A stretch of 64,000 nt of DNA from the NCBI GenBank assembly GCA_037833965.1, contig AP031357.1:17132001-17196000 (forward strand), read 5' to 3'. Origin of the DNA: Marchantia polymorpha subsp. ruderalis. Its lineage: Eukaryota > Streptophyta > Marchantiopsida > Marchantiales > Marchantiaceae. Positions 2,828-58,410 of this stretch are shown here, in pieces. A program made the position numbers and the translations under genes. A model generated the notes under the pieces. It searched no databases and was not told the DNA's origin. It saw only the letters and a list, made by a program, of their open reading frames with translations. How positions within the stretch are numbered: the stretch's first letter is position 1; every line of letters starts with the position of its first letter.

Positions 2828-4513
2828 TTACATGTGCTCCCCATGCACAACTTGCATGGTAGCACAGTGTCGTCTGAAACTCTCCAATGGAATAACTTTG
2901 GTCAAAGCATCAGCTAGATTGAGTTTACCGTCGATCTTGACTAGCTCAATCGTTTTATCAGACACTGTTTGTCTGAAAAAATGATACCTGATGTCAATGT
3001 GCTTCACTCTGCTATCCATGACCTGGTTTGCGGCCAAATGTAAAGCGCTCTGGCTATCACAATGAATATTAACCACGCCTTGCTTCAATCCCATTTCCAT
3101 GATAAGCCTATCCAGCCCAATAGCTTCCTTTGCCGCTTCTGTTGCTGCCACATATTCAGCTTCTGTTGTTGACTGAGCTACACATTTCTGCAAGGTAGAC
3201 CTCCAACTAATGCTTCCACCGCCAAGTGTAAATATATACCCAGTCCTTTTATCTAAATCTTGTCCGTAGTCAGCATCAACGTAACCAAACAAGGATTTGG
3301 CATTGTCTAATAGACCATCAAACAATAAGCCATAATCCAGAGTACTTTTCAAATATCTCAAAATCCATTTCACTGCTTCCCAATGAACTTTCCCTGGATT
3401 TGACATGTACCTGCTCACCTTGCCCATCGCAAAAGCAATGTCCGGCCTAGTGCACACCATCAAATACATGAGGTTGCTTACTGCTTGTTCATAGGGAACA
3501 CATGACATATTTCCTTTCTCCACCGCATCCGTAGAACATTGAGCTCTAGAGAGTTTGAAATCTGCTGCTAAAGAAGTCCATACTCCTTTGGAATCCATCA
3601 TGTTGGACCTGTCAAGTATACGACAAACATACTTGCCTTGACTCAACCATAATTTCTTCTGCTCATGATCTCTGTGTATCTCCATGCCTAATATTGTACT
3701 CCCCCATATACTTCATCTTAAATGCAGACTTCAACTTACTCTTGCATTCATCAACATCGGATTGGTTTTTTGCCAATATGAGCATATCGTCAACGTATAG
3801 TACTAAAATGATGAGATTGAACGTCTCATCATTTACCTTCTTCATGTAAACACAAGGATCATACAGGCTCCGCAAAAATCCTTGTGCCTTCATGAACTGA
3901 TCAAATTGCGTGTTCCACTGCCTAGGAGCTTGTTTCAATCCATTCAATGATTTCAATAATTTACAAACCAACCTCTTTTTGCCTTTGACATCAAAACCAA
4001 CCTCTCTTTGCCTTTGACCTCAAAACCAACAAGTTGTCTCATGTAGATCTCCTCCTCTAAATATCCATAGAAAAAAGCTGTAACTACATCCATCTGATCC
4101 ATAACAAAATCAAACATCGCAGCCAGTGCACAAACCAGACGAATTGTAGCATACTTAGCTACCGGTGAGAAAACTTCGTTGTAGTCCACGCACTTCTCTT
4201 CGGTGAAATCTCTAGCCATCAACCTAGCTTTGAAGATTTTTGCCTCGTCTCCTCCTAGATTGTCTTTCAGCTTGTACACCCACTTGGAATCAATCAGCAT
4301 TTGATTGGTAGGAATGTCAACCAGCTCCCAAGTCTTATTGTCAATCAAGGATTCCATCTCCCTCTCCATAGTAGCATTCCACTCAAGCTTATTGACCGAA
4401 GCTTGAGCTTCCCTGTATGAAGAAGGTTCATCTTCTTCCAAAATCAACGCTATACCATCACTATCTTCGATATCAAAGTCACAATCTTCTAGAATGGATG
4501 AATTTGCCTTTGT
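2828..4513 (-). pseudogene. Copia pol fragment: reverse transcriptase and RNase H, frameshifted
   Basis: Three overlapping open pieces in different frames make the 3' part of copia pol. First piece (4513 to about 3970): the N-terminal RT region with W-x-x-A-M-x-x-E, NKTWELVDIP, KWVYKLK, and DVVTAFFYGYLEEEIYMRQ (normally DVKTAFLNG). Second (3971-3663): GLKQAPRQWN and the YVDDMLI catalytic box. Third (3685-2828): YLMVCTRPDIAFA, then RNase H with YVDADYGQDLDKR, TEAEYVAATEAAKE and HIDIRYHFFR near the end. The first break coincides with a 31-bp tandem duplication at about 3964-4025; the second (about 3685) is a 1-nt slip at YNI|LGMEI. The element is inactive. Copia RT and RNase H normally copy element RNA into DNA in cytoplasmic particles. 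Confidence 0.88.
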
Positions 4514-4997
4514 AACGACTTGACTCAGTTAGGGTCTTGTTGGAAAAAGCTCAACCTGCTCGTTCCAACGAGACCAAGAACTCTTGAAACGGATGAGAGA
4601 TCACTGAGTTATGAGCGTCAAAAGCGGCTGACATGATTAGGCGAAAGGCCTTTGGCGATAACAGATAGAGAGGCGTTCGGCGATAACAGATAGAAGGTCC
4701 TTCTGCCCAAGAAGTTGCAAGTAGGCGAGTTGCAAGGAGTTGCAAGTAAGAAGCTTGCGCATGGGCGAGTTGCACGTAGTAAGCCTGTGTATAGGCAAGT
4801 TGCGCGTATGCGAGTTGCGCGTAGGAAGCCTGTGTATTGGCAAACGCCTTCGGCGGAAGAGTAAAACAGTGATAACTTTTTCAATTCTTAACGGTTTAAC
4901 TTAGTTAGGGGCTCGTTGGAAAGAGCTCAACACGCTTGTTCCAACAAGCCCAAGAACGTTTCAAACGATGCAGCGATCTGTGAGTTATGAGCGTCGG
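4513..4997. repeat. Repeat patch: ~107-bp direct repeat pair flanking a minisatellite
   Basis: A unit at 4513-4619 (containing AGTTAGGGTCTTGTTGGAAA and ending GAGTTATGAGCGTC) recurs at about 4888-4996 with some 80% identity by eye. Between the copies, 4705-4850 holds a short-period array built on GTTGCGCGTAGGAAGCCTGTGTA-like units, and 4635-4700 has two copies of GGCGATAACAGATAGA. The patch replaces the missing 5' half of the copia element. It has open frames on the minus strand, but these are repeat translations and not a recognised protein. Confidence 0.65.
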
Positions 4998-18537: not shown

Positions 18538-21500
18538 CTACATGTAAAGTTTTGGGATGGCTTTCGGTTTCGTTGACAGTCTAACCCTACAAATAGGACA
18601 CAATCTGGTCTTTTGATAAATATCAACGGCACATTTTAAGCAGATCTTCGCATGGCCACAAGGTTGCATGAGGGCTCTCGTAGCTTCCTCCCCGAAGTCT
18701 AAGAAACACACTGAACATTCCTGCTAAAATGACATTGAAACGTATGGATCGAACTTCTTGTTAGTAAATCACCCGGAATGTCGTGTAGAACTCATCCCAT
18801 ATATCCCCATCTAAGTTTGCATCAAGTTGTCTCCGACGTAGACTGAAAACTGTTTAATTAAACGATTGATATGAGAGTGCAATGACACACTCCAATGTAG
18901 ACTGAAAACTGTTTAATTACACGATTGATGTGAGGGTGCAATGACACATACTGCGTGTGCGCTTTGTGAATGTAGTCAAGTCTTACAAATAATGTTTTGG
19001 ATACTCGTGTTCAACCATGCACATACTTTTGCAAAAGGTGGGTCAAGAAGTAACATACCGATAATGTTTCCGTTGATGTAGAAAGAATCTTTGCCTCGCT
19101 CTCAAGTTTCTCCTTCTCTTGTTTCGCACTCTCGGCTGATGCCTTCAAGGCGGTTTGTTTTCTAAGCCATTCCATAAGGATTTCTTGACGCATTTTATTG
19201 AAATCTTCCACGAGCTGTATATAACATATACAAGTTTCATGTAGGTCAGAAACCATTGGATAGAGAATAAAGACCAATCTAATTGAGGTTCTCCTCAGCT
19301 TACCATGTTTAAAACGCTCCAATAATAGTAAGTGAGAAGATTGTATTATTCACTAAGTATTACAATACTTATCTCCTACTAAGATGATAATTACAAAGGA
19401 AGAGTTTTATAATTACGAAGTATAAACTTATATCCATCTCATACTTTGTTTAAGATGGTCCAAAAGTGTAAAGGAGAAGATTGTGTTCGTTCAGCACTAG
19501 TTGGTACAATGATTTTAGACTATAAATAAAATAGAATGTAAAAGCCAACAGTAGTTGGTACAATGAATTTAGACTATAAATAACATAGAATGTAAAAGCC
19601 AACACGATTAGAACAAATATATTGACATAGATTGGTGGTAAAAGCTTCTCTATCATCAACATCCTCGACCAGTGTAGATGGACTAGTTGGAACAATGATT
19701 TCACATTATAAATGATATAGAATGGAAAAGCCAACACGATTAGAATAAATATATTGACATAGATTGGTGGTAAAAGCTTCTCTATCACCAACATCCTCGC
19801 CCTGTGAGATGACTCGACTAAACATTTTTTAATGTGTTATAATGAGATGATTACATGCATGATGGATATGGCTGACTCAGATAAACAAACCTTCATCTTT
19901 TGAGCTTCATGCTTCTCCAACATATTACGCTCCATATTATGTGCTACTTCATTAAACTGTTCTTCCCTTTGCTTGATGACGGCATATGCTTCTTCCCGTC
20001 TTCTTGCAATTTCCCGTTCTTTCCCAAGTGCTTTCTGAGCTCTGTTTCCAAATCAATGACAAAGATCATCAATTCTGAAAAGCAAAACATTTATCAACTG
20101 CATTAGAAAGACTGGTTGGACTACACACATTAGAAAAACTTCTCACATTGGTGATACTTACATTTTCTGGGTACTCTTTCCATATCTACTTACATATATA
20201 TTACTATATTTCTATTTTACTTACATGTGTTTTTCTAACTCTTGTGTAATATTTGCAACCTGAGACCTCATGGTTTCCACCTCTTTGTTCCTCTCGATCC
20301 TCTCTTTCAACAGTTGTCTTTCATTACTCTCGAATAGTGCCCGAATCTTTCCTTCTCGAGCTAATCGTTCCTCTTCCATCCGCCATATATCACTCTTGAA
20401 TTGTGCGTCCATCAATTTCAGCTGACATTTGCAACCACAATATCAACTACTGAAATGTAGATCACATCGTAGCTGCTGATTAATATTAGACAAAAGAACC
20501 GCATGCTGAAAGCTAAATAAAAAAGAAGGTTTTGTGTGTCAATATTAGACAAATGAATCACATGATAAAACCTAAATAAGAAAGAAGGCTATGTGTGGCA
20601 AGGGATCTTTTTGACCTACGTATAGTTTATCAATATGAATGAGATAACGGATGGATGAGTGGGTAACCGCACCTGCTCTGCATGTCTGTATGAGATATAT
20701 TCTTCACGTTGTTTTTGTTCTTGCAAACCCATCTCAGCTTCTTTTAGCTGCAGAGATAGTAATGCCTTACTTGATTTGAATCTCTGATGGCTCTCAGCTA
20801 TCTGATCAACCTCCACCAATTTAGCTTTTAGTTTGGCTTTTTCCCTTTCATGTTCCTGCGAATAAAACATTCCAGATTAAAGAAAACCATTGCAGAAGTG
20901 TCTTCTAGTGGGAATAGTCTAGAGCATCAAAATGTTGCGTACTCAGTATTGGTAGGAGATATTATAAGTGAAGCAAAACTCAACAGTCTGACAGTCTATC
21001 TATCGCAACGTAGAAGTTGATAGTGAGTTTAGTGTATTTAGCTCAATCTTAGATGAAGCTTTGAACATACTGTTCACGAATGGATGACAATTGCAGAAAA
21101 AAATCCATAATAAGTCCAGTATACAGAATGATGATTGTGTAAGGAGTTCGACCTCCTTAGATTTCTTGGACACAATCTTCAGTATCTCCCTTCTATTTTC
21201 TGCAGACCAGTTGATAAGTTTCTTGTGGGGATCAATGTTGATCATGTCCGATGGCTCAGCTAGATGACCAACCGGAACTCCAGGATCCATGGGCCATGAG
21301 TACAGATGTGGGTGCTGTACACTAAAAGGTCCCACTCCTCCCATGGCTGCTCTCGTGTTGTACCTAGGAGCGGATATATGAACGTTGGTAGGCATTTGAG
21401 AGGACAGCAGCTTAGCCAAACTCTCGACAAGCAGCTTTGCATTCAACAGTCCTAATTCTGAAGCAGGGAACATGACCAACATCCTGCCAGGTTTACCATC

Positions 21501-22931
21501 TGTGTTTTCACGGAGGGTCTTCTCTACATCCATAGTTTTAAACAAAGGAACATGGATATCGAGGCTTTCCTTATCCTTCATATTTGTAATAATGACTAGA
21601 GGAGGCCATACAATTAACTCCTCTGCCAATTTCCCACTATCGATCAGAACTGCCTTTTCTTCGGAGCGTTGATCATCAATAAGTCTAGGTCCCCTCTTCA
21701 GATGATCTGAAAGTGCTCTGTAATAAGCTCGATGCTGGACTAGTCTCCTCTTTTTAAACTTATCTGCATGTTGAAGGAGAGCTGTCCAACCCTTCAGTCT
21801 TTGGGGAAATGGACAGATCATGCACGCTTTCTCCTCCTTGTCCAACTGCCAGTTTTCATCCACGCCCATCTGGTTCATGAATTTCCTAACCTTCGGGAAT
21901 AATTCTTGATATGTTCTGTCCACTCTGACCATGAAGTCTTCATCCGTTTCATCTTCCAATTCGCTGTCATCTTCATCATTGTCTGCTTCTTCATCGTCAT
22001 CCCTTCTCCTCCGGGGATTCGAAGGCTGCTGGTGACGTAGAGATTTGGAGTTCGCAAAAGGATCTTTCACTGGAGGTGGTTTGTAAGAGTAGTCGATACT
22101 CCCAGGAATAAATAAATAAGTTGATGGCTTAATATCTTGCTCATCGTCTGAGTCGTCCAAGATACTACAAGAGAATGTTGGGGGAATAATACTGGTGGAT
22201 ACAGTTTTCGTAGCCACCTTGGTCTCTTCTGGTTCAATCCGATCGATTTTGGGAATCTCGGTGAAACACCTATGGGGTGACTTTCTCAAGGGAGAACTCT
22301 GCGACTCTGGTTTTGAAAGAAATTGCTCTTTAAGGGATGCAGGAGAAATGTCCAATCCAGGGGGTTGGGGCTCAGATGCAGACAGCTTTAGAGGTTGATG
22401 AGATGGGGCTACAAATGGGGTGTAATGCATCGGAGCCGAACGACTGGGTTGTGAAGAGGAGTGTGGGTAAGGAGTCAAGGGCAGCGGAGGATGGACAGGA
22501 AGGTTGAGCAATTGATGCTGTATTGGAAGCAGATTCAATGCCATCGGTGGATTTGGTAAAAGGCAAAGTTGAAACACTGATGGATGGGACAGAGTGGGGA
22601 CAGGTACAGGTACTGGGAGATGCTGGATAGGTGGTTGAGGTGTAGTAGGGTGAGGAACAGCAGTATTGGTCGGATGAGCAAGAGCATGAATCACAGGTGG
22701 TGGTGGTGGTGGAGTCTGCATCTGGTACTCTACTTGACGGTACAGAATAGGATGTGACATCTGAACTGACAGTGGCGGAGGACCAGGAGGCAAGGGTGGA
22801 GGGAGTGGCCTTGATGGAGGCCTAGGTGTTCTCAGAAGACCACCCCAGTCGGGCATAGGATGAGTTCCAAGCTGGTGCATAACTGGTACCCTCTCATGGG
22901 GCCCTCGGAATCTTGAGTCCAAGGCGCTCAT
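18538..22931 (-). CDS. XS-domain, coiled-coil, RING-finger protein (SGS3/IDN2-related), six exons
   Basis: Exons in transcript order: 22931-21153, 20855-20673, 20421-20225, 20041-19891, 19214-19059, 18720-18538. Phases join to one 882-residue frame; the first donor (GAG|GTCGAA) is weak, the others good. Residues 1-200 are proline-rich and 309-332 very acidic. An XS-type zinc finger follows, with C370-x2-C373, H388 in LLQHA and H400. The XS domain starts at ELIVWPPLVIITN (about 438-450) and runs to about 515. Residues 594-822 form a long charged coiled coil. The end is a RING finger with C824, C827, C843, H845, C849, C852, C863 and C866 (PCGH, CPICR). XS proteins of the SGS3/IDN2 type bind RNA duplexes with 5' overhangs in plant RNA silencing; RING fingers recruit E2 enzymes. 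SGS3/IDN2 proteins usually end in a coiled coil or XH domain, so the RING is the odd part. TAG directly before the ATG may be the acceptor of a 5'UTR intron. Confidence 0.82.
18838..18955. repeat. 59-bp tandem duplication in the last intron of the XS-RING gene
   Basis: Copies at 18838-18896 and 18897-18955 share GTAGACTGAAAACTGTTTAA, ACGATTGAT and GAGTGCAATGACACA with only a few differences. They lie in the intron between exons 5 and 6 (18721-19058). Confidence 0.75.
19500..19796. repeat. Tandem repeat block in intron 4 of the XS-RING gene
   Basis: Units begin with GTTGGTACAATGA at 19500 and 19554 and GTTGGAACAATGA at 19686. The last two carry the same long tail (AAAGCCAACACGATTAGAA, CATAGATTGGTGGTAAAAGC, TTCTCTATCA, CAACATCCTCG) with few differences, giving a ~132-bp period plus a shortened first unit. 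Open frames across it are repeat translations. Confidence 0.75.
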
Positions 22932-34399: not shown

Positions 34400-35185
34400 G
34401 CGTACTGCGGATTCGGGACGGTTCTGGTCCGGTCCGGCGGCAGTCCGAACAAAGAGCGAAGCCACTTGACACGATTCAGGAGGAGACGAAAATCCAGGCG
34501 ATAAGGAGCTCGCGACTCTGTTTTGACGACGACGCAAGCGGAGGAGGGCGTCAGTGTCCCGATCCGACGAGCGACGAGATAATCTAACGGATCGAGAGAG
34601 TCAACGGCCCTGGGAAACACCTGGGACCGCATCCTCGCGGGCGAAGAAAACGGAGGGGAGGACGAGAGGAGCGAAGGGAGGGCGGGACGAGAGAGAGAGA
34701 GAGGCGGGCGCGCCCGTCAAACGTCCAGACGAGGGGAGGGGGCGGGGTGCGGGGGCCGATGAAGCTTTCAACGCAGAAAGGCGGGGTGGGGAGGGAACTG
34801 TCAGCTACGGAGGGACGGAGGCGCGCGGGGCCGCGGGCGGGAGGAGACGAGCAAGAAGAGGCAGGCGGGCGCGCGGGGGGGCGGCCGCGGGTGGGCAGGC
34901 GGGCGGGGGGCTATGGAGACGATGAAGCTCGTTGCTGAAGTGCGGAACGGAGACAGCCGAAGGGCCGAAGGGGGACAGCTGAATGTTTGCAAGGGGAGGC
35001 AGAAGTGGAAGGGGAGCGAGCAGCAGCAGGAAGAGGAGGAAGAGGAAGCGGAGCAGCAGCAGAGGGAGGGAGGGAGGGAGGGGAGGGGAGGGCAGGGAAG
35101 GGAAGGGGAGGGAGGAGCAGGACCACGACGAAGAGAGCGACGGGCGGCGGAGGCTCAATAAGGCACGGGGTGCGGAAGGAAGGCT
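34400..35185 (+). promoter_or_regulatory. GC/GA-rich leader of the hAT-derived gene
   Basis: Extremely GC-rich, strongly purine-skewed DNA on the + strand (GAGGGAGGGAGG, GAGGAAGAGGAAG and GCAGCAGCAG runs at 34640-35140) leading to the ATG at 35186. Open frames in all phases follow from composition. The CpG richness matches the other gene starts in this window. Confidence 0.45.
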
Positions 35186-37756
35186 ATGTCTTCCACTCAA
35201 ACAGCGCTGGAGGTCGGAAGAGTGCGCGCTTCGGTGGGCGGGGCTGGAGCAGGAGCGGCGGCGGCAGGGGCAGCAGCAGGCGGAGGCGGAGGCCCTCTTC
35301 TGCAGCAGCCGAGGCGCCTCGCGGGCGGGCAGGGCCCTGCGCAGGGCGGGGCGGGATTGGGCGCAGGCGCGGCCTCGAAGGCCGCCGATGCAGCGGCCGC
35401 GCGCCAGTCGAGCATCGCCAACCTGTTCGGGGGCTCGGGGTTCGACGGCTCGCGCGATCACTTGGGCGATGTCGGGTTCAATTCCGGCAGCGCGCGGAAC
35501 GATGCGCACGACGATGGCGGTGCGGGCGATTGTGACGAGGACGAGGACGAGTACGAGGAGCTTACGAATGAAGCGGGCAAGAGAATCCGCAAGAAGAAGA
35601 AGCAGTTCAAGCGCTGCTTCCGGGCCATGTGGCGGGTGAAGCACCCGTGGGTCATCGAGATCAGAGCGCCCAACGATCTCACTGTTATGAAATGTCAGTA
35701 CTGCAAGGAGTTCGGGCTCAATAATCCCTGGGGCAAAGGGGAGGGCTGCAAGACCCTGCAATTGTCCGCGCTTAAGACTCACGAGGTCTCCCACGGCCAT
35801 AAGAAAGCCGCCGCGGCATGGGCCAGCCAAAATCAACAGAATGAGCACGGAGGAGGCGGAGGCGGAGGCGGAGGAGGAGTCAGTGTGCACTCCATCCAAT
35901 CGAACAACACGAATTTAAACCCTGGAATGAACCTTCTCCAGCCGAACTCCTCGCTGTCGATTCCGGGATTGCACCACCAATCGCAGCAGGCGCTCTATCC
36001 CTCCGAGAGCCCATCGGTCGAGCTGCAAGAAGGACCGATAATTAGTGTCATTCAGTTGATGTATTTTACCGCCTCGCACGATCATGCCATCCAAGATTAC
36101 GAGGCTCTGTGTAAGTTGCACAGGTTTATGGGAACTCCCGGCATGCCCGTTCATGATGAGTACTCTGCCTACACCAGCGTTAGGGCGGGCAAGGAGTTTC
36201 TCTGGGCCTCGAGCGAGTTTTTGATCAAAGGGCAGCAAGCCAGCATCACGGGGAGCCCTTTCTTCTCTCTATTTATTGAAGAAGGTATAGATAGGGCTTT
36301 TGAACAGCACGTGATAGTTTACATAACATATCTCTCGGAAAAGGGTTCTGGCCTTCCCGTTGTGGAATTTGTCGAGCTTCTGGAGATCGCGGACAATTCG
36401 CCTCAAGCAATTTACAATGCCCTCGGCGATTTGCTCTCCCGAAAAAGGTTGCAGCTGTCGAAGCTAGTCGCCATCTGTACTGATGGGGGTTTCATCATGA
36501 CTAGTGCTAGGGAGGGCCTGGTATCAAAGTTGAAACGAGACGTTCCCCATTTGCTGGAGATTCACTCCATAGGGCATAGGGAAGCTCTCGCTGCCGGCGA
36601 TGCCGCGAAGTTGCTGTCAGAGCTAGACTTCGTCGATACTTTCGCCAGCAAAGTTTACGAGTGGGCTGGACGCTCGGCGAAACGGCATTCAGAACTGTCG
36701 GAGCTGCTGGAAGCTTTTACTCAAGGAGTGGTGGAAGTCGTCCAAATCCACAGGATTAGGTGGTTGTCCCGGGCCCAGGTGGTCGAGAAGTTGGTACAAG
36801 TGATGCCAATAATTTTGGAAAGGTGGCAGGTCGAGGAAGTGGAGTGGTATGCCATCGCCACTTCGTTCCAGCTGCAGTTCTGTCTCAATCTACTTGCTGA
36901 TGTTCTGTGTGATCTCAACAAACTCAACAAGAAGTTCCAAGAGGAGAAGGTTGAGCTTACAGCCATAGGAGCACAGTTGGACGTCACGATTTCTGCCTTG
37001 AAGAGAAGATTTCTGCGAGGATTTGAGGAATTTGCCCAAGGAACCAAGTACTTGAAGGAGTTCTTGAAACAAGCGGATGGGGGAGAGTTACAGTATGTAG
37101 ATGGAGAGGGCACTTTGCACCAGCATCGTCTGAGGTTTGAGGCTATGCCTGGATGCAACAGAGGAGGATCGATTGGCGACTGCAAGATTCTCGGACAAGA
37201 GTACATAAGGAAAGTGATAGAGTCCCTGAATGAGAGGTTTCCTGATAACCATACTTACAATGCTGCGAAGATATTTAGTCCGAAATATTATCCAGGTGAC
37301 GAAATTGAAAGGGAAAGGGTAACGTCCCAGTGGTTGGAGAGACTGCTGGAAAAGTTCGGCTCTCATGATTTGGAAGAGCCATTAGTGAATTCCGAGAGGT
37401 GTAGGCAAGAGCTCCCAGAGTTCGTCTCAATGCTGGCTAGTTGTTGCGAGAGAAAAGGTATGGTCGAAGCCTGGACTTTCTGCGGAGAAGTAAAAGATTG
37501 GTACGCTAGTTGGCCTAACTTGATGCATCTATGGCAGATCGTTATGGTCATTCCCTCTAATACCATTGCCTGCGAACGGGGCTTTTCGAGACAACACTTA
37601 GTTAGAGACACAACCAGAACACACCTAAACCTTAAAACTCTAGATGCGTCCATGAGAGTGTCAGTCAATGGCCCAGACATGAGTAAAGTAGATTGGCGGG
37701 CTATCTTCGAGATATGGAAGAACGCTAAAGACCGTCGGCCTCTCAGGTTAGAATAA
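35186..37756 (+). CDS. hAT-transposase-derived protein with BED-like zinc finger and hATC domain
   Basis: Uninterrupted 856-residue single-exon frame. Residues 1-100 are low-complexity Gly/Ala. An acidic tract (115-125) and a basic tract (132-142, KRIRKKKKQ, possible nuclear signal) precede a BED-like finger with C170-x2-C173 and H199/H203/H205, then a poly-Gly run (222-231). The RNase-H-like transposase core shows FFSLFIEEGID (359-369), CTDGGFIMTSAREG (431-444), HSIGHREALAAGDA (460-473) and RIRWLSR (523-529), the pattern of DUF4371-type hAT proteins (ZNF862/C17orf113-like). The hATC dimerisation domain at the end has PSNTIACERGFS (790-801). In active relatives the first block usually reads D-E-S-T-D; here its first Asp is Glu365. 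An intact frame, GC-rich promoter and altered residue suggest domestication as a nuclear DNA-binding factor, but no terminal repeats were searched exhaustively. Confidence 0.85.
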   Translation: MSSTQTALEVGRVRASVGGAGAGAAAAGAAAGGGGGPLLQQPRRLAGGQGPAQGGAGLGAGAASKAADAAAARQSSIANLFGGSGFDGSRDHLGDVGFNSGSARNDAHDDGGAGDCDEDEDEYEELTNEAGKRIRKKKKQFKRCFRAMWRVKHPWVIEIRAPNDLTVMKCQYCKEFGLNNPWGKGEGCKTLQLSALKTHEVSHGHKKAAAAWASQNQQNEHGGGGGGGGGGVSVHSIQSNNTNLNPGMNLLQPNSSLSIPGLHHQSQQALYPSESPSVELQEGPIISVIQLMYFTASHDHAIQDYEALCKLHRFMGTPGMPVHDEYSAYTSVRAGKEFLWASSEFLIKGQQASITGSPFFSLFIEEGIDRAFEQHVIVYITYLSEKGSGLPVVEFVELLEIADNSPQAIYNALGDLLSRKRLQLSKLVAICTDGGFIMTSAREGLVSKLKRDVPHLLEIHSIGHREALAAGDAAKLLSELDFVDTFASKVYEWAGRSAKRHSELSELLEAFTQGVVEVVQIHRIRWLSRAQVVEKLVQVMPIILERWQVEEVEWYAIATSFQLQFCLNLLADVLCDLNKLNKKFQEEKVELTAIGAQLDVTISALKRRFLRGFEEFAQGTKYLKEFLKQADGGELQYVDGEGTLHQHRLRFEAMPGCNRGGSIGDCKILGQEYIRKVIESLNERFPDNHTYNAAKIFSPKYYPGDEIERERVTSQWLERLLEKFGSHDLEEPLVNSERCRQELPEFVSMLASCCERKGMVEAWTFCGEVKDWYASWPNLMHLWQIVMVIPSNTIACERGFSRQHLVRDTTRTHLNLKTLDASMRVSVNGPDMSKVDWRAIFEIWKNAKDRRPLRLE

Positions 37757-45128: not shown

Positions 45129-46679
45129 CCATAATGATGAAGATATGTCTAGATTTGATAAATTCATTCACAATTTCATTTTTTCCTTGTGAATATGATA
45201 ATATTTTAAGTGAATATAAATTTCTATAAGTCTATATATGTTTGAAAATGGATAAAACTCACATAAAACTGGGATGTAATATGTGTAAAATAGACCAAAA
45301 TAAAAAAACATGTGCGCAGTTAGAAGCATCAAATTACTGTTATATACATAGTCCTTAACGACAATTCACGTGACTCGGGATAGAGTTTTGGAGTGGATAA
45401 GTAACCAGGTTTATCCCGAGTAGTTTGTCAACGAATATAAGAGTATAAATATAAAGGTCTTGGGATCAGAAGAGATTACATCTTTTCTGCTCTAAATCTT
45501 TGGTTTACAGAAGGCTATGAATGCACACATCTTTCTTAGCTGGAGGCGTAACATTGTACCGAGAATAGTATTTATATGATGAGGCCTTTGATGTTGTTGT
45601 TGATTGTGATCTCCCTACCTTTCTCCCGAACTTCTTTTAACCTGAGATACATCATCACCCGGGCGCCTAAATTACCCATATTAGCTTAATTTAGTCTCAT
45701 CAAGAGACCTTTGTGTAAATATGAGCCTTATTAAGCATTAAGAGTGCATAAAATGGAGCCATGTGCAGTTCATGTGCAACATACCTTTTGTTCGATCCGT
45801 ACCAGGTTTTTATTCAGGTTGTCAATCACCCTCTATTAAAATCCTTATCTGGATTTCCCCTCCTGTTCAATATTACAATGCTGTTCTCCATAACTGACAG
45901 TAGCCAAATTGATCTGTGTGACTATCAACAATCCACCAGTACGAAGTAACTCTGATTTGCCATCCGAAGAAACCTTGTCTATGACTGAACCCTTCAGGTT
46001 ATCTCTATAAAATCTAGCACCCTTATTTGCCTAAATCCGCCAGCTAAGGGTGCACCTATGACATGCCATTGAATCTTCGCAATAATCCTCGAGGAACAGT
46101 TGTAGTTCTCTGTAGGTTCTTTATGTGTAAACTTAGTTACAACCAAGGATGCACCTGCTTTTATTCAAAATAATTTCATTAGCATGCTTCATACTCAAAA
46201 ATCATTCGCACGCTTAGAAGCCATATAAGACCTCCCACTCCTCTCAGTAACCAATCGCGCAACTCACCACATCCCCTGTTACACTACAATGGAGTTCAAT
46301 GTCCACTCGATTCATAAACGCTAGTGGTAGTAGGCAGTTTAGAGAAACGTTTTGGTGGCATCTGATATGCCTGGTCTAATATGGGCCCAGGATTCTCTAA
46401 AGGTTTTGATAAAAACTGAACGTGGATGATTTTGTGTCTAGCATATCCTCTGTCTCTGTCTCGTTACTGTTATTAGATTGTAGAGTAAATATGTCTGCGT
46501 AAGTGAAGGTAGGATAAGCAGGCGAGCAGTCTAGTTCAGGCGTCTCGGCATACGATCGCATATTTTAACAAGGCCTGGTCATCACTCATTTATACTAGAC
46601 ACTAGGTTGGTACTTCAGCATACTTGTAGCATACATCCGAACTTTATTCCCGTTTTGAAATTGCAACGAAGTCCTTACA
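45129..46679. other. Spacer without recognised genes
   Basis: No convincing exon or RNA gene on either strand. The open frame 45761-45949 is short and shows no motif. The LRR pseudogene homology begins abruptly at about 46680. Confidence 0.5.
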
Positions 46680-47412
46680 AAGATCTGCTGCGTCTCCAGT
46701 CGCTGCATTTGTCGGCCAACTATCTCACGGGGAAGATTCCTGCGGTGCTCAGCAGGCCCAGCTTGAGGTATCTGAAACTCTCCTACAACTTCCTCGAGGG
46801 CGAGATCCCCACGGCGAATGCTTTCTCCACGAGGTACGACATTTCGTCCTTCAAGCCCGGGAACGATCAGCTCTGCGGGCCCCTGCTCGAGACCACTTGT
46901 GCGGCGCAAGACAGCAACGCAAGCGGAAGCTCGGCCACACTCAGGCCTCCGTCGTTCGAGCTCCTGGATGTTACATTCTGGCGGGCCTTTGAGATCGGAA
47001 TTCCGAACGGGGTCGTGATCGGAACGCTGAGAACAATGCCCTGCGCACGACACTGGCTACTGCATACTCAAGATTTTGCTCGCCATTCCAATGACGGTAG
47101 ATACGGAGTGTTCAACGAACCGACATAGACCGAATCATTCAGCAGCTGATTGCTGCGTACGCGACTGCTGTCTTTGCACCCGGCTGGACCCCGGGGTCCA
47201 GCCGGGGCTTACGAGATTCGACATGAATGGGGACTCGTTGTCCGCCATACACATGTGCTTCTGCTGCTGGGCCTGTAGATAGCACAACGTTGTCTGCACT
47301 GATTGGTCCAATTGGACTGTGTAAAGTAGAGCCAGATTCCACAACAATTCATGATTGCAGGAGTACTCCCCTTGGAAGCTTTTGTCTCCAGATTGGAAAA
47401 GATTCATTGTAA
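46680..47412 (+). pseudogene. Truncated copy of the 3' end of the LRR receptor-like gene
   Basis: 46680-47128 codes the last ~150 residues of the receptor-like protein at 53568-58410 and ends at the same stop: LRR pieces LSANYLTGKIPAVLS and YNFLEGEIPTANAFS, the cap NDQLCGPLLETTC, and the tail DGRYGVFNEPT. 47129-47412 continues into the same 3' untranslated sequence. The membrane segment is damaged: an Arg, a Glu and an Asn interrupt FWLAFGIGTAIGVV (here FWRAFEIGIPNGVV). There is no signal peptide or LRR array upstream; homology starts suddenly at about 46680. It is a dead duplicate and probably not expressed as a working protein. Confidence 0.85.
47179..47206. repeat. Perfect 28-bp GC palindrome in the duplicated 3' UTR
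   Basis: Centre at 47192/47193 (GGACCCCGGGGTCC). Every base pairs out to C47179-G47206. It lies about 50 bp after the stop of the truncated LRR copy. The full gene has the same element at 58450-58469. Confidence 0.8.
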
Positions 47413-53567: not shown

Positions 53568-56500
53568 ATGCACTTACTCAGAAGATCTACAGGTCGGGCA
53601 TCGGTCGTTTCCTCTCCTGATCTGCCCGCTCTCCGCGAACGCTTCAGTATGCTGGTGATTCTGGTGCTATATTGCCTCCAGCTCGGTGCTTGCGCCGTTG
53701 GTCAGGAGGATACCACCTTCGGCGAAATAAGCAGAATCGAGACTCTTGATGAGACTCTCCAGGATCCAGATTTCGATGTATGTGCAGAATCGGCCGGGAA
53801 AAAGCATGGCAGCATCAACATCAAGAGTGGACTTCCTCTGGCTTCCTCCGTCGAAGCGCATATGGGCCAGAAACAAGCACACGGCGGTCCCAGGAGCCAG
53901 CGAGAGCTGCAGCAGTTTAGACTTCAGGACCAAACCGTCGACACTTCATTAACGACTTGTCATGAGCCTCACCATCGTTCTCTGGAGGAATCTACACACT
54001 CCCGAAGAACATCTCGCACTTTGCTCCAAGACAGCTTCGGGTCAGTGACATTTAGCAGCAAGCTATCATCTCATAGAGACGTGCGCAATTTTGCACCTGT
54101 AGCTTGCGTCCTTCGTCTGTGCATGTGCACAGCAATGCACAAGCATGAGTAAAATTAATCTCTAACGCCAAAAGAGTCCACTGTGTTGACACTGTCCCAG
54201 GGAGGCCGATGCGCTCCTGCAATTCAAGGCCGAAATCAAAATGAACACGAACAACGCTTTGGATGGATGGACAACGGGCAATCGCTCCACCTACTGCTCG
54301 TGGACGAGGGTCATCTGCGACGATGAGCTGCACGTGATCTCCCTCAACTTCTCCGGGCTGAAATTGAACGGCACTTTGGGTCCTTCGTTGGGCAAGCTCG
54401 AATACCTCGAGCACCTCGATCTGAGCCACAATTTCCTGTTGAGCGAACTTCCCGTGGAATGGGGCCAGCTGCAGAGGCTGCAGACCTTGGACGTCCACGA
54501 CAACTTTCTCTTCGGTGGAGTTCCTGCAGAGTACGGCAACATGTCAAGGTTACGAGTTCTCAACATCAGAGTGCAGGGCTTGTTCTTCAATGGATCCATT
54601 CCGGATGAGCTGGGTCTGCTCTCTGAGCTCGAGGTTCTGGACCTGGGGTCGAACAAGATGAGAGGCCCCATTCCCAAGTCCATCGCCAACTGCACGAAAC
54701 TGCGACACTTGGATTTCAGCCGCAACAACAATCTGACGGGTCCCATTCCGAGAGAGTACGGCCAGCTCGTCAATCTGGAGTATCTGGATTTCCAGCGGAA
54801 TTTATTCACAGGCTCCATCCCATCCGAGCTGGGCAACCTTACCAAGATATTGTTCCTGGACTTGGGAAACAACGCCCTGGAGGGAGAGTTCCCCATGGAG
54901 CTGGCGTCGCTGTCGGAGCTCGATTGGCTGAACGTGGGGACCAACTTCCTGAATGGGAGTTTTCTAACAGTGGAATCCACTTCATGGAGTCGGCTCGAAA
55001 AGCTCTTCATCGACGGGAACAAATTTCGTGGCGGCTTCCCCAGAGCTGTGTTAGCCATGACGGCGCTGAAGAGGTTCTACATGTTCAACAACGAGTTCAA
55101 CGGCAGCCTGCCCGAGACCTTGGGGCAGCTGGTCAACCTCCAAGAGTTCAGCTTCCGCAGCAATCAACTGGACGGGAAATTGCCCGACAGCCTCAACAAC
55201 TGCACGCAGCTCACTATGCTGGACGCGTCGAGCAACAGGCTCACGGGCATGCTGGAATGGGGCCGGCTGCAGAGGCTGCAGACCTTGAACCTCCACAATA
55301 ACTTTCTCGATGGGTTCATTCCGGAGGAGCTGGGTCTGCTCTCTGAGCTCGAGGTTCTGGACTTGGGGTTGAACAAGATGATGGGTTCCATTCCCAAGTC
55401 CATCGCCAACTGCACGAAACTGCGACACTTGGATTTCAGCCGCAACAGCTTTCTGACAGGTTCCATTCCGAGAGAGTACGGCCAGCTCGTCAATCTGGAG
55501 TATCTGGATTTCCAGGGGAATTTATTCACAGGCTCCATCCCATCCGAGCTGGGCAACCTTACCAAGATACTGTTCCTGGACTTGGGAGGCAATGCCCTGG
55601 AGGGAGAGTTCCCCGTGGAGCTGGCGTCGCTGTCGGAGCTCAATTGGCTGAACGTGGGGACCAACTTCCTGAATGGTAGTTTTCTGACAGTGGAATCCAC
55701 TTCATGGAGTCGGCTCGAAAAGCTCTTCATCGACGGAAACAAATTCCGTGGCGGCTTCCCCAGAGCTGTGTTAGCCGTGACGACGCTGAAGAGTTTCTAC
55801 ATGTTCAACAACGAGTTCAACGGTAGCCTGCCTGAGAACTTGGGGCAACTGGTCAACCTCCAAGAGTTCAGCTTCCGCAGCAATCAACTGGACGGGAAAT
55901 TGCCCGACAGCCTCAACAACTGCACCCAGCTCACTATGCTGGACGCGTCGAGCAACAGGCTCACGGGCATGCTGGAATGGGGCCGGCTGCAGAGGCTGCA
56001 GACCTTGAACCTCCACAACAACTTTCTCCATGGGTCCATTCCGAAGAAGCTGGGTCTGCTCTCTGAGCTCGAGGTTCTGGACCTGGGGTCGAACAAGATG
56101 ATAGGCTCCATTCCCAAGTCCATCGCCAATTGCACGAAGCTGCGGTACTTGGATTTCAGCCGCAACAACTTTCTGACGGGTTCCATTCCGAGAGAGTACG
56201 GCCAGCTCGTCAATCTAGAGTATCTGAACTTCCTTACCAATTATTTAACAGGCTCCATCCCATCGGAGCTCGGTAACCTGACGAAGATCAAGTCCTTGGA
56301 CTTGGGAATGAATGCCTTGGAGGGAGAGTTTCCCGTGGAGCTGGCGTCGCTGTCGGAGCTAAATTGCCTGAACTTGGGGACCAACTTCCTGAATGGTAGT
56401 TTTCTGACAGTGGAATCCACTTCATGGAGTCAGCTCGAAAGACTCTTCATTGACGGGAACAACTTTCGTGGCGGCTTTCCCAGAGCTGTGACGGCCATGA

Positions 56501-58410
56501 CGGCGCTGAAGAGGTTCTACATGTTCAACAACGAGTTCACCGGCAGCCTGCCTGAGAACCTGGGGCAGATGGCCAACCTCCGAGAGTTCAGCTTCCGCAG
56601 CAACCAGCTGGACGGAGAATTGCCCGACAGCCTCAACAACTGCACGCAGCTCACTATGCTGGACGCAGGGAGCAACAAGCTCACGGGCACGCTCGACCCG
56701 CTCAGAAACCTGTCGCTGCTCTTGCACATAAACCTCGGCAGTAGCTACAGGTCGAAGACCATCACGTATGAGAACCTCCGAGGCCACATATCGGATCTCT
56801 TCTTCAATTCCTTCACGGGCACCCTCACTGACGACCTCATCCTCCAGTGGCCGATGCTGCAGCGCCTGTATCTCGACACCAATGCCTTCACCGGCCCTAT
56901 CCCCAAAGCGCTAGGCAATCTGTCCCACCTCAAGGACTTGCTCCTGAACGACAACGACTTTCGAGGCTCCATTCCCGCCGAGCTCGGCAAGCTGTCGAAC
57001 TTGACGATCCTCTTCCTGCAGAACAACAAGCTGTCTGGGCCCATACCCACGAGCTTGGCCGACCTGAAGAGCATCCAACAGATCAATCTGAGCAACAATT
57101 CTCTGACAGGAGGGATTCCCCCGGAGTTCGGAGGTCTGGTGAATTTGATGTACTTGCGCCTGCATGTCAACGCGCTGACGGGCCGAATTCCTCCAGAGCT
57201 GGGGCAACTGCAGAATATGGTGTATCTCATCCTCAACAGCAACAACCTCACGGGAACCATTCCCGCGTCTCTGGCGAACTGCAGCTCCCTGAGAAACATC
57301 AGGCTGAGCAACAACAAGCTCACGGGCACGGTGACTCAGATTCACTTCTTGCAGCTGCGATCCCTCGAGAGCTTCTCTGTCAACGGGAACCAGCTGGGCG
57401 GAGGGTTTCCCGTCAGCGTGTACAACTGCACGGATCTGAAGCTCTTGGACTTGAGCAACAATGGATTCTCAGGGGAGCTCCCCGACAACTACGAGTACTC
57501 TCAGCCAGTGTTGCGAGATTTGCGAGTTTTGGGTCTATCATCCAACAAATTCGGCGGCAGCGTGCCCGGCTGGATCTGGAAGCTTCCGGAGCTGCAAGTG
57601 CTCGACTTGTCGCACAACTCGTTCACGGGAGTGTGGCCGACCAATCTCTCGGGCTTGGAAGGCTTTAGTCGCCTCGAAGCGACACCAGACGACGCCGGGG
57701 TAAGCAGCAGTGTCAACAACAACGATAACCCCACGCAGGTCGAGGGGGAGGGGAGAAAATTGTTCGAGCAAATCTCCATTCAGGCCAAAGGTCTGCGACT
57801 CGTGTACGAGTACGTCCTCGAGACTTTGATCTCCATTGACCTATCATACAACCAGCTCTCAGGGAGGCTCCCGTACGCGCTTGAAGCGCTGCGCGGGTTG
57901 ACGTACTTGAATCTGGCGCACAATAATTTCTCGGGCGAAATCCCTCAGGTGTTCGGAAATCTGTTGCTTTTGCAGTCGCTGGATTTGTCGGCCAACAATC
58001 TCACGGGGAAGATTCCTGCGGTGCTGACGAGGCCCAGCTTTGGCTATCTGAACCTCTCCTACAACTTCCTCGAGGGCGAGATCCCCACGGGGAATGCTTT
58101 CTCCACGAGGTACGACATTTCGTCCTTCAAGCCCGGGAACGATCAGCTCTGCGGGGCTCCGCTCGAGACCACTTGTGTGGCGCAAGACAGCAACGCAAGC
58201 GGAAGCTCGGCCACACTCGGGGCTCCGTCGTCCGAGCTCCTGGATGGAACATTCTGGCTGGCCTTCGGGATCGGAACGGCGATCGGGGTCGTGATTGTGT
58301 TGGGAACGCTGAGCACAATCCCCTTCACACGACACTGGCTGCTGCATCCGCAGGATTCCGCTCGCCGTTTCCAAGACGGTAGATACGGAGTGTTCAACGA
58401 ACCGACATAG
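53568..58410 (+). CDS. LRR receptor-like protein without kinase, two exons, about 1560 aa
   Basis: Exon 1 is 53568-54040 (donor TTCGG|GTCAGT), exon 2 54201-58410 (acceptor GTCCCAG|G); the join restores the LRR N-cap reading GEADALLQFKAEIK. A hydrophobic signal segment lies at 28-45 (MLVILVLYCLQLGACAVG), so 53649 is an alternative start. About 110 residues of unassigned, Ser/Arg/His-containing sequence precede the cap, with C190-S-W-x4-C197. The ectodomain is a long plant-type LRR array (L-x-x-N-x-L-x-G-x-I-P), including three near-identical 240-residue blocks. An island-like gap (about 1310-1360, ending AKGLRLVYEYV) is followed by four LRRs, the cap NDQLCGAPLETTC, one membrane helix (about 1508-1530) and a ~25-residue tail with no kinase. 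Such proteins sit in the plasma membrane, sense extracellular ligands in defence or development, and signal through partner kinases. Ligand and partner are unknown. Confidence 0.88.
54463..56700 (+). repeat. Three tandem ~240-residue LRR cassettes (720-bp period)
   Basis: The sequence GGCCGGCTGCAGAGGCTGCA begins at 55261 and again at 55981, exactly 720 bp apart; a related start (GGCCAGCTGCAGAGG) is at 54463. Unit 1 is longer by 78 bp near its start (LRR around SRLRVLNIRVQGLF). Each unit runs through GLLSELEVLDLG, PKSIANCTKLR, REYGQLVNLEYL, ASLSEL, FLTVESTSWS, RSNQLDG and LNNCTQLTMLDA. Units 1 and 2 are almost identical at the DNA level; unit 3 differs more and ends where CTCGACCCGCTC begins (about 56691). 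Confidence 0.92.

Follow-up and report, generated by a model that had tools for sequence, protein, structure and literature searches.

Results

The window analyzed here, a 64,000-nucleotide stretch of the Marchantia polymorpha subsp. ruderalis genome (C8:17132001-17196000 of a 241,466,482-base assembly in 9 contigs), contains a gene that joins a head related to XS proteins to a C-terminal RING finger within one predicted protein. The sequence itself shows the plan of the gene, its RING, its kinship with XS proteins and its paralog. The gene family is real and was correctly spotted in the initial annotation, and the XS domain of the window gene is divergent. The models of the window gene and of its sister, C8b, are both predictions built from sequence. 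On the minus strand, from 22931 to 18538, six exons join in frame into 882 codons and a stop, and all five introns are of the GT-AG type. The six-exon, 882-residue model proposed in the initial annotation held up, with a frame open throughout and with coordinates and ligand numbers that are correct.

Exon 1 (21153-22931, residues 1-593) is an open frame ending at a GT donor and encodes a proline-rich N terminus, with 53 prolines within residues 1-200, followed by an acidic stretch, a zf-XS-like zinc finger with two cysteine and two histidine ligands (C370, C373, H388 and H400; approximately residues 366-408, 21708-21836) and the divergent XS domain (residues 437-585, 21177-21623). A long charged helix begins in exon 2 (20673-20855, residues 594-654, 183 nucleotides), continues through exon 3 (20225-20421, phase 2 at its end) and exon 4 (19891-20041), and ends in exon 5 (19059-19214, residues 771-822). 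This region comprises 237 charged, proline-free residues, and its heptad-repeat score was reached by 159 of 500 shuffled sequences. Exon 6 (18538-18720), identified by Pfam and by the RING of the sister gene, carries a C3HC4 RING finger (C824-C866) and a 16-residue tail ending in Pro-Lys-Leu-Tyr-Met before the stop codon. Two-copy tandem duplications lie in introns 5 (18831-18948, 59 bp), 4 (19498-19811, 54/132 bp) and 2 (20482-20601, 59 bp); their copies match at 83-96%.

The RING is the most securely identified part of the protein, passing two Pfam cut-offs (zf-RING_2, 31 bits against 27.3; zf-C3HC4_3, 29.1 bits against 27) and retaining all eight zinc ligands in C3HC4 spacing, which bears out the earlier description of a complete RING spanning C824 to C866. 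A hydrophobic residue (V826) stands between the first two cysteines, a proline (P864) between the last two and an arginine (R867) after the last cysteine, which we take to be the positions at which active RINGs hold the E2 enzyme and its ubiquitin. The closest solved sequences are those of MEX3C, RNF4 and further RING ligases. NCBIfam gave one match, below its cut-off, and an AlphaFold model of the RING exon computed without an alignment had a predicted local distance difference test score (pLDDT) of 54.0.

C8b, a second six-exon gene (C8:17944120-17936918, minus strand, 899 residues), lies 786 kb from the window gene, measured from RING exon to RING exon. Its protein combines an XS domain (69.6 bits) and a RING with a charged helix that is free of proline and similar in length. 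The C8b RING (C8:17937112-17936921) is the best non-self match of the window RING, with 42% identity over 60 residues at an expect value (E) of 5.6e-8; three weaker matches lie elsewhere, with E up to 0.01. An XS exon at C8:17942390 is on the same strand, with the RING 5.3 kb downstream. The phases of all five introns agree between the two genes, exon 2 is 183 nucleotides long in both, and each protein ends in P-K-[LI]-Y-M; the last exon can therefore be assigned to the window gene rather than to a neighbor. The sister differs at the finger: Pfam zf-XS found no match in C8b at E up to 10, and its 446 residues up to the start of the XS domain contain no cysteine.

The XS domain and the finger of the window protein are less readily recognized. 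Pfam XS (PF03468) scored 18.3 bits on the whole protein and 20.9 on the excised region, missing the cut-off of 25, and no match at E up to 10 was found in it for zf-XS (PF03470) or XH. Genome searches, which scored only the best candidates exon by exon so that counts are lower bounds, listed four places for Pfam zf-XS and six for Pfam XS; the window gene was in neither list. Judged by Pfam scores alone, both domains would be leads only. The window XS is nevertheless homologous to XS proteins that pass the Pfam cut-off, and this homology is well supported because the genome contains another gene built to this plan; the finger aligns with that of SGS3 and has the same ligand spacing. The initial annotation of an XS domain and an XS-type zinc finger thus stands by way of relatives and alignment, and not by domain score, and a domain search accepts the RING while leaving the XS below threshold. 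Against solved sequences, the window XS gave only two chance-level matches (E 0.54 and 1.3), and a profile built from three XS domains gave none at E up to 1; an FDM-type XS from the same genome matched 4e8u at E 4.1e-21. The pLDDT of the XS region, again modeled without an alignment, was 33.1.

Searching the genome with the finger-XS part of the window protein returned as non-self matches an XS exon on C4 (E 3.8e-5) and a finger on C3 (E 6.6e-4; 50% identity over 36 residues), together with a weak match to an SGS3-type locus on C2 (E 0.09). The C3 locus (approximately 1661164-1664500, plus strand) is a broken relative of the window gene: an intron interrupts its finger, its XS-like part is degenerate, and it retains a helix exon and the start of a RING, which is cut off by a stop after 28 residues. 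Its finger-XS part matched no Pfam family, and tblastn with the window and C8b proteins matched only that part (E up to 0.1). The C4 XS (17749906-17750430) is 55% identical to C8b over 167 residues; in 17.9 kb around it, the same two queries matched the XS exon and neither helix nor RING at E up to 0.1, and this copy is possibly truncated. A fragmentary zf-XS/XS copy at C9:5568188-5568646 has a stop inside its XS match and is perhaps an IDN2/FDM pseudogene.

Elsewhere in the window, an uninterrupted plus-strand frame of 864 residues (35162-37756) carries a zf-C17orf113 finger (61.9 bits) and, by eye, a hAT transposase-like end, and is perhaps a domesticated or live transposase. A second uninterrupted plus-strand frame (54190-58410, 1406 residues) encodes leucine-rich repeats, includes LRRNT_2 and seems on visual inspection to hold large internal repeats; Pfam matched no kinase in it, and a further leucine-rich-repeat fragment lies at 46535-47128. 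On the minus strand, a retrotransposon fragment (2828-4528) includes an RVT_2 reverse transcriptase (3953-4528), a type found in Copia elements; the adjoining frame (2828-3712) had no Pfam match. Rfam at gathering scores found nothing in the window.

Discussion

The architecture described here suggests an oligomeric E3 ubiquitin ligase of the RING type, one of a small family of XS-RING proteins, in which an SGS3-like head and a proline-rich N terminus choose the target; we hold this complete picture to be slightly more probable than not. Its parts differ in strength. The RING is best read as conferring the E3 ligase activity raised in the initial annotation, which is predicted with good confidence: the C-terminal RING would bind an E2 charged with ubiquitin. 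Oligomerization through the long helix is probable, a point on which we are moderately confident. Dimeric RINGs make use of a short aromatic tail that follows their final pair of cysteines, and the aromatic C-terminal tail of the window protein may likewise help to activate the E2-ubiquitin across a dimer. Target choice would fall to the finger and the degenerate XS domain of the head together with the proline-rich N terminus, and the targets would most likely be RNA-bound proteins or relatives of SGS3 and IDN2.

That the ligase is aimed at RNA or silencing complexes, as the initial annotation proposed, is possible and remains for us a minority expectation, since the XS domain is degenerate. 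Several observations weigh against RNA targeting and are what would be expected if the RING were active on a head that no longer binds RNA, leaving an ordinary protein-targeting ligase whose decayed XS serves as a dock for proteins or as a spacer. Besides falling short of the Pfam cut-off, the window XS is matched only over approximately positions 1-78 of 113, finds no match in the two FDM-type XS domains of the genome, and is missing the W-x-G-L-G segment present in the C8b and C4 copies, an absence that weakens the RNA part of the targeting idea. Yet the head as a whole is still recognizable, and the four ligands of its SGS3-like finger are kept, in the C3 relative as well, so that we regard a purely protein-directed ligase as somewhat unlikely. 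Wholesale decay of the gene, as a duplicate following the course of the C3 copy, is considerably less probable. The degraded XS, the stop within the RING of the C3 relative and the tandem duplications in three introns would fit such a history, but the full 882-codon frame is open with every splice site present, and the RING ligands and tail are kept, with 43% identity to C8b. Least credible of all is that the RING exon is part of another, neighboring gene and that its predicted join to exon 5 is a modeling artefact. The C8b RING exon is homologous and ends in the same tail; it agrees with exon 6 in position, phase and strand and comes after the same set of helix exons. The RING frame of the window gene becomes open only three bases upstream of exon 6 and offers no start codon before the RING. 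Given this homologous last exon, we rejected an origin of exon 6 in another gene.

SGS3 and related proteins have a central role in plant RNA silencing, and a relative that carries a RING of its own would allow a plant to couple RNA recognition and protein destruction within one molecule. The preferred reading of an oligomeric XS-RING ligase could extend, in a bolder form that we consider unlikely, to a so far unstudied land-plant family carrying a full SGS3-type head on a dimeric RING and marking silencing or RNA-granule proteins for turnover. If true, this would constitute a direct physical link from XS-based RNA recognition to ubiquitin, one that other lineages would have lost or taken over with separate proteins. 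The two apparently intact copies, one with the finger and one without, make the target-choosing part of the protein testable.

Comparison with known systems separates the window protein from its nearest relatives. An SGS3 candidate on C2 (approximately 15.93 Mb), named by eye and with zf-XS and XS identified by domain search, has the order of finger, XS and helical part and the histidine spacing of the finger in common with the window protein, although its XS is split between two open frames and the RING search gave no match at its locus. SGS3 identity for the window protein is ruled out by the RING, and a separate SGS3-type locus exists in the genome. IDN2/FDM candidates at C2:22.83 Mb and C7:9.62 Mb, named and identified in the same manner, likewise resemble it in having a finger of the zf-XS type, an XS and a putative coiled coil; IDN2/FDM proteins end in XH, as stated in PMC6631971, whereas the window protein has a RING in that position and no XH match, which rules out this identity too. 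In SGS3, according to PMC8167712, the XS domain binds RNA and the coiled coil mediates protein contacts. The likeness to MEX3C, named an RNA-binding E3, and to RNF4 concerns the RING sequence only; the RNA-binding part of MEX3C is not an XS domain.

Whether XS and RING had been described together was left open in the initial annotation, and the combination is in print: one sentence, giving no function, mentions a Selaginella moellendorffii XS protein, XP_002979112, with a C-terminal RING and no zf-XS (Morozov et al. 2018, PMC5907777). Our literature searches, which lay outside preprints and most subscription journals, found no study of an XS-RING protein and no paper combining XS domain, RING finger and E3 ubiquitin. 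The RING passages in PMC12765794 and PMC2664332 are unrelated to such a fusion, and the text of PMC6118397, which surveys RING ligases of plants, contains neither "XS domain" nor "SGS3". Compared by that brief description only, the Selaginella protein shares the XS and C-terminal RING of the window protein, which differs from both it and C8b in having an SGS3-like finger. What is apparently new here is the union of finger, XS, helix and RING in one protein, and the occurrence of two XS-RING genes that are both apparently intact, of which one has the finger.
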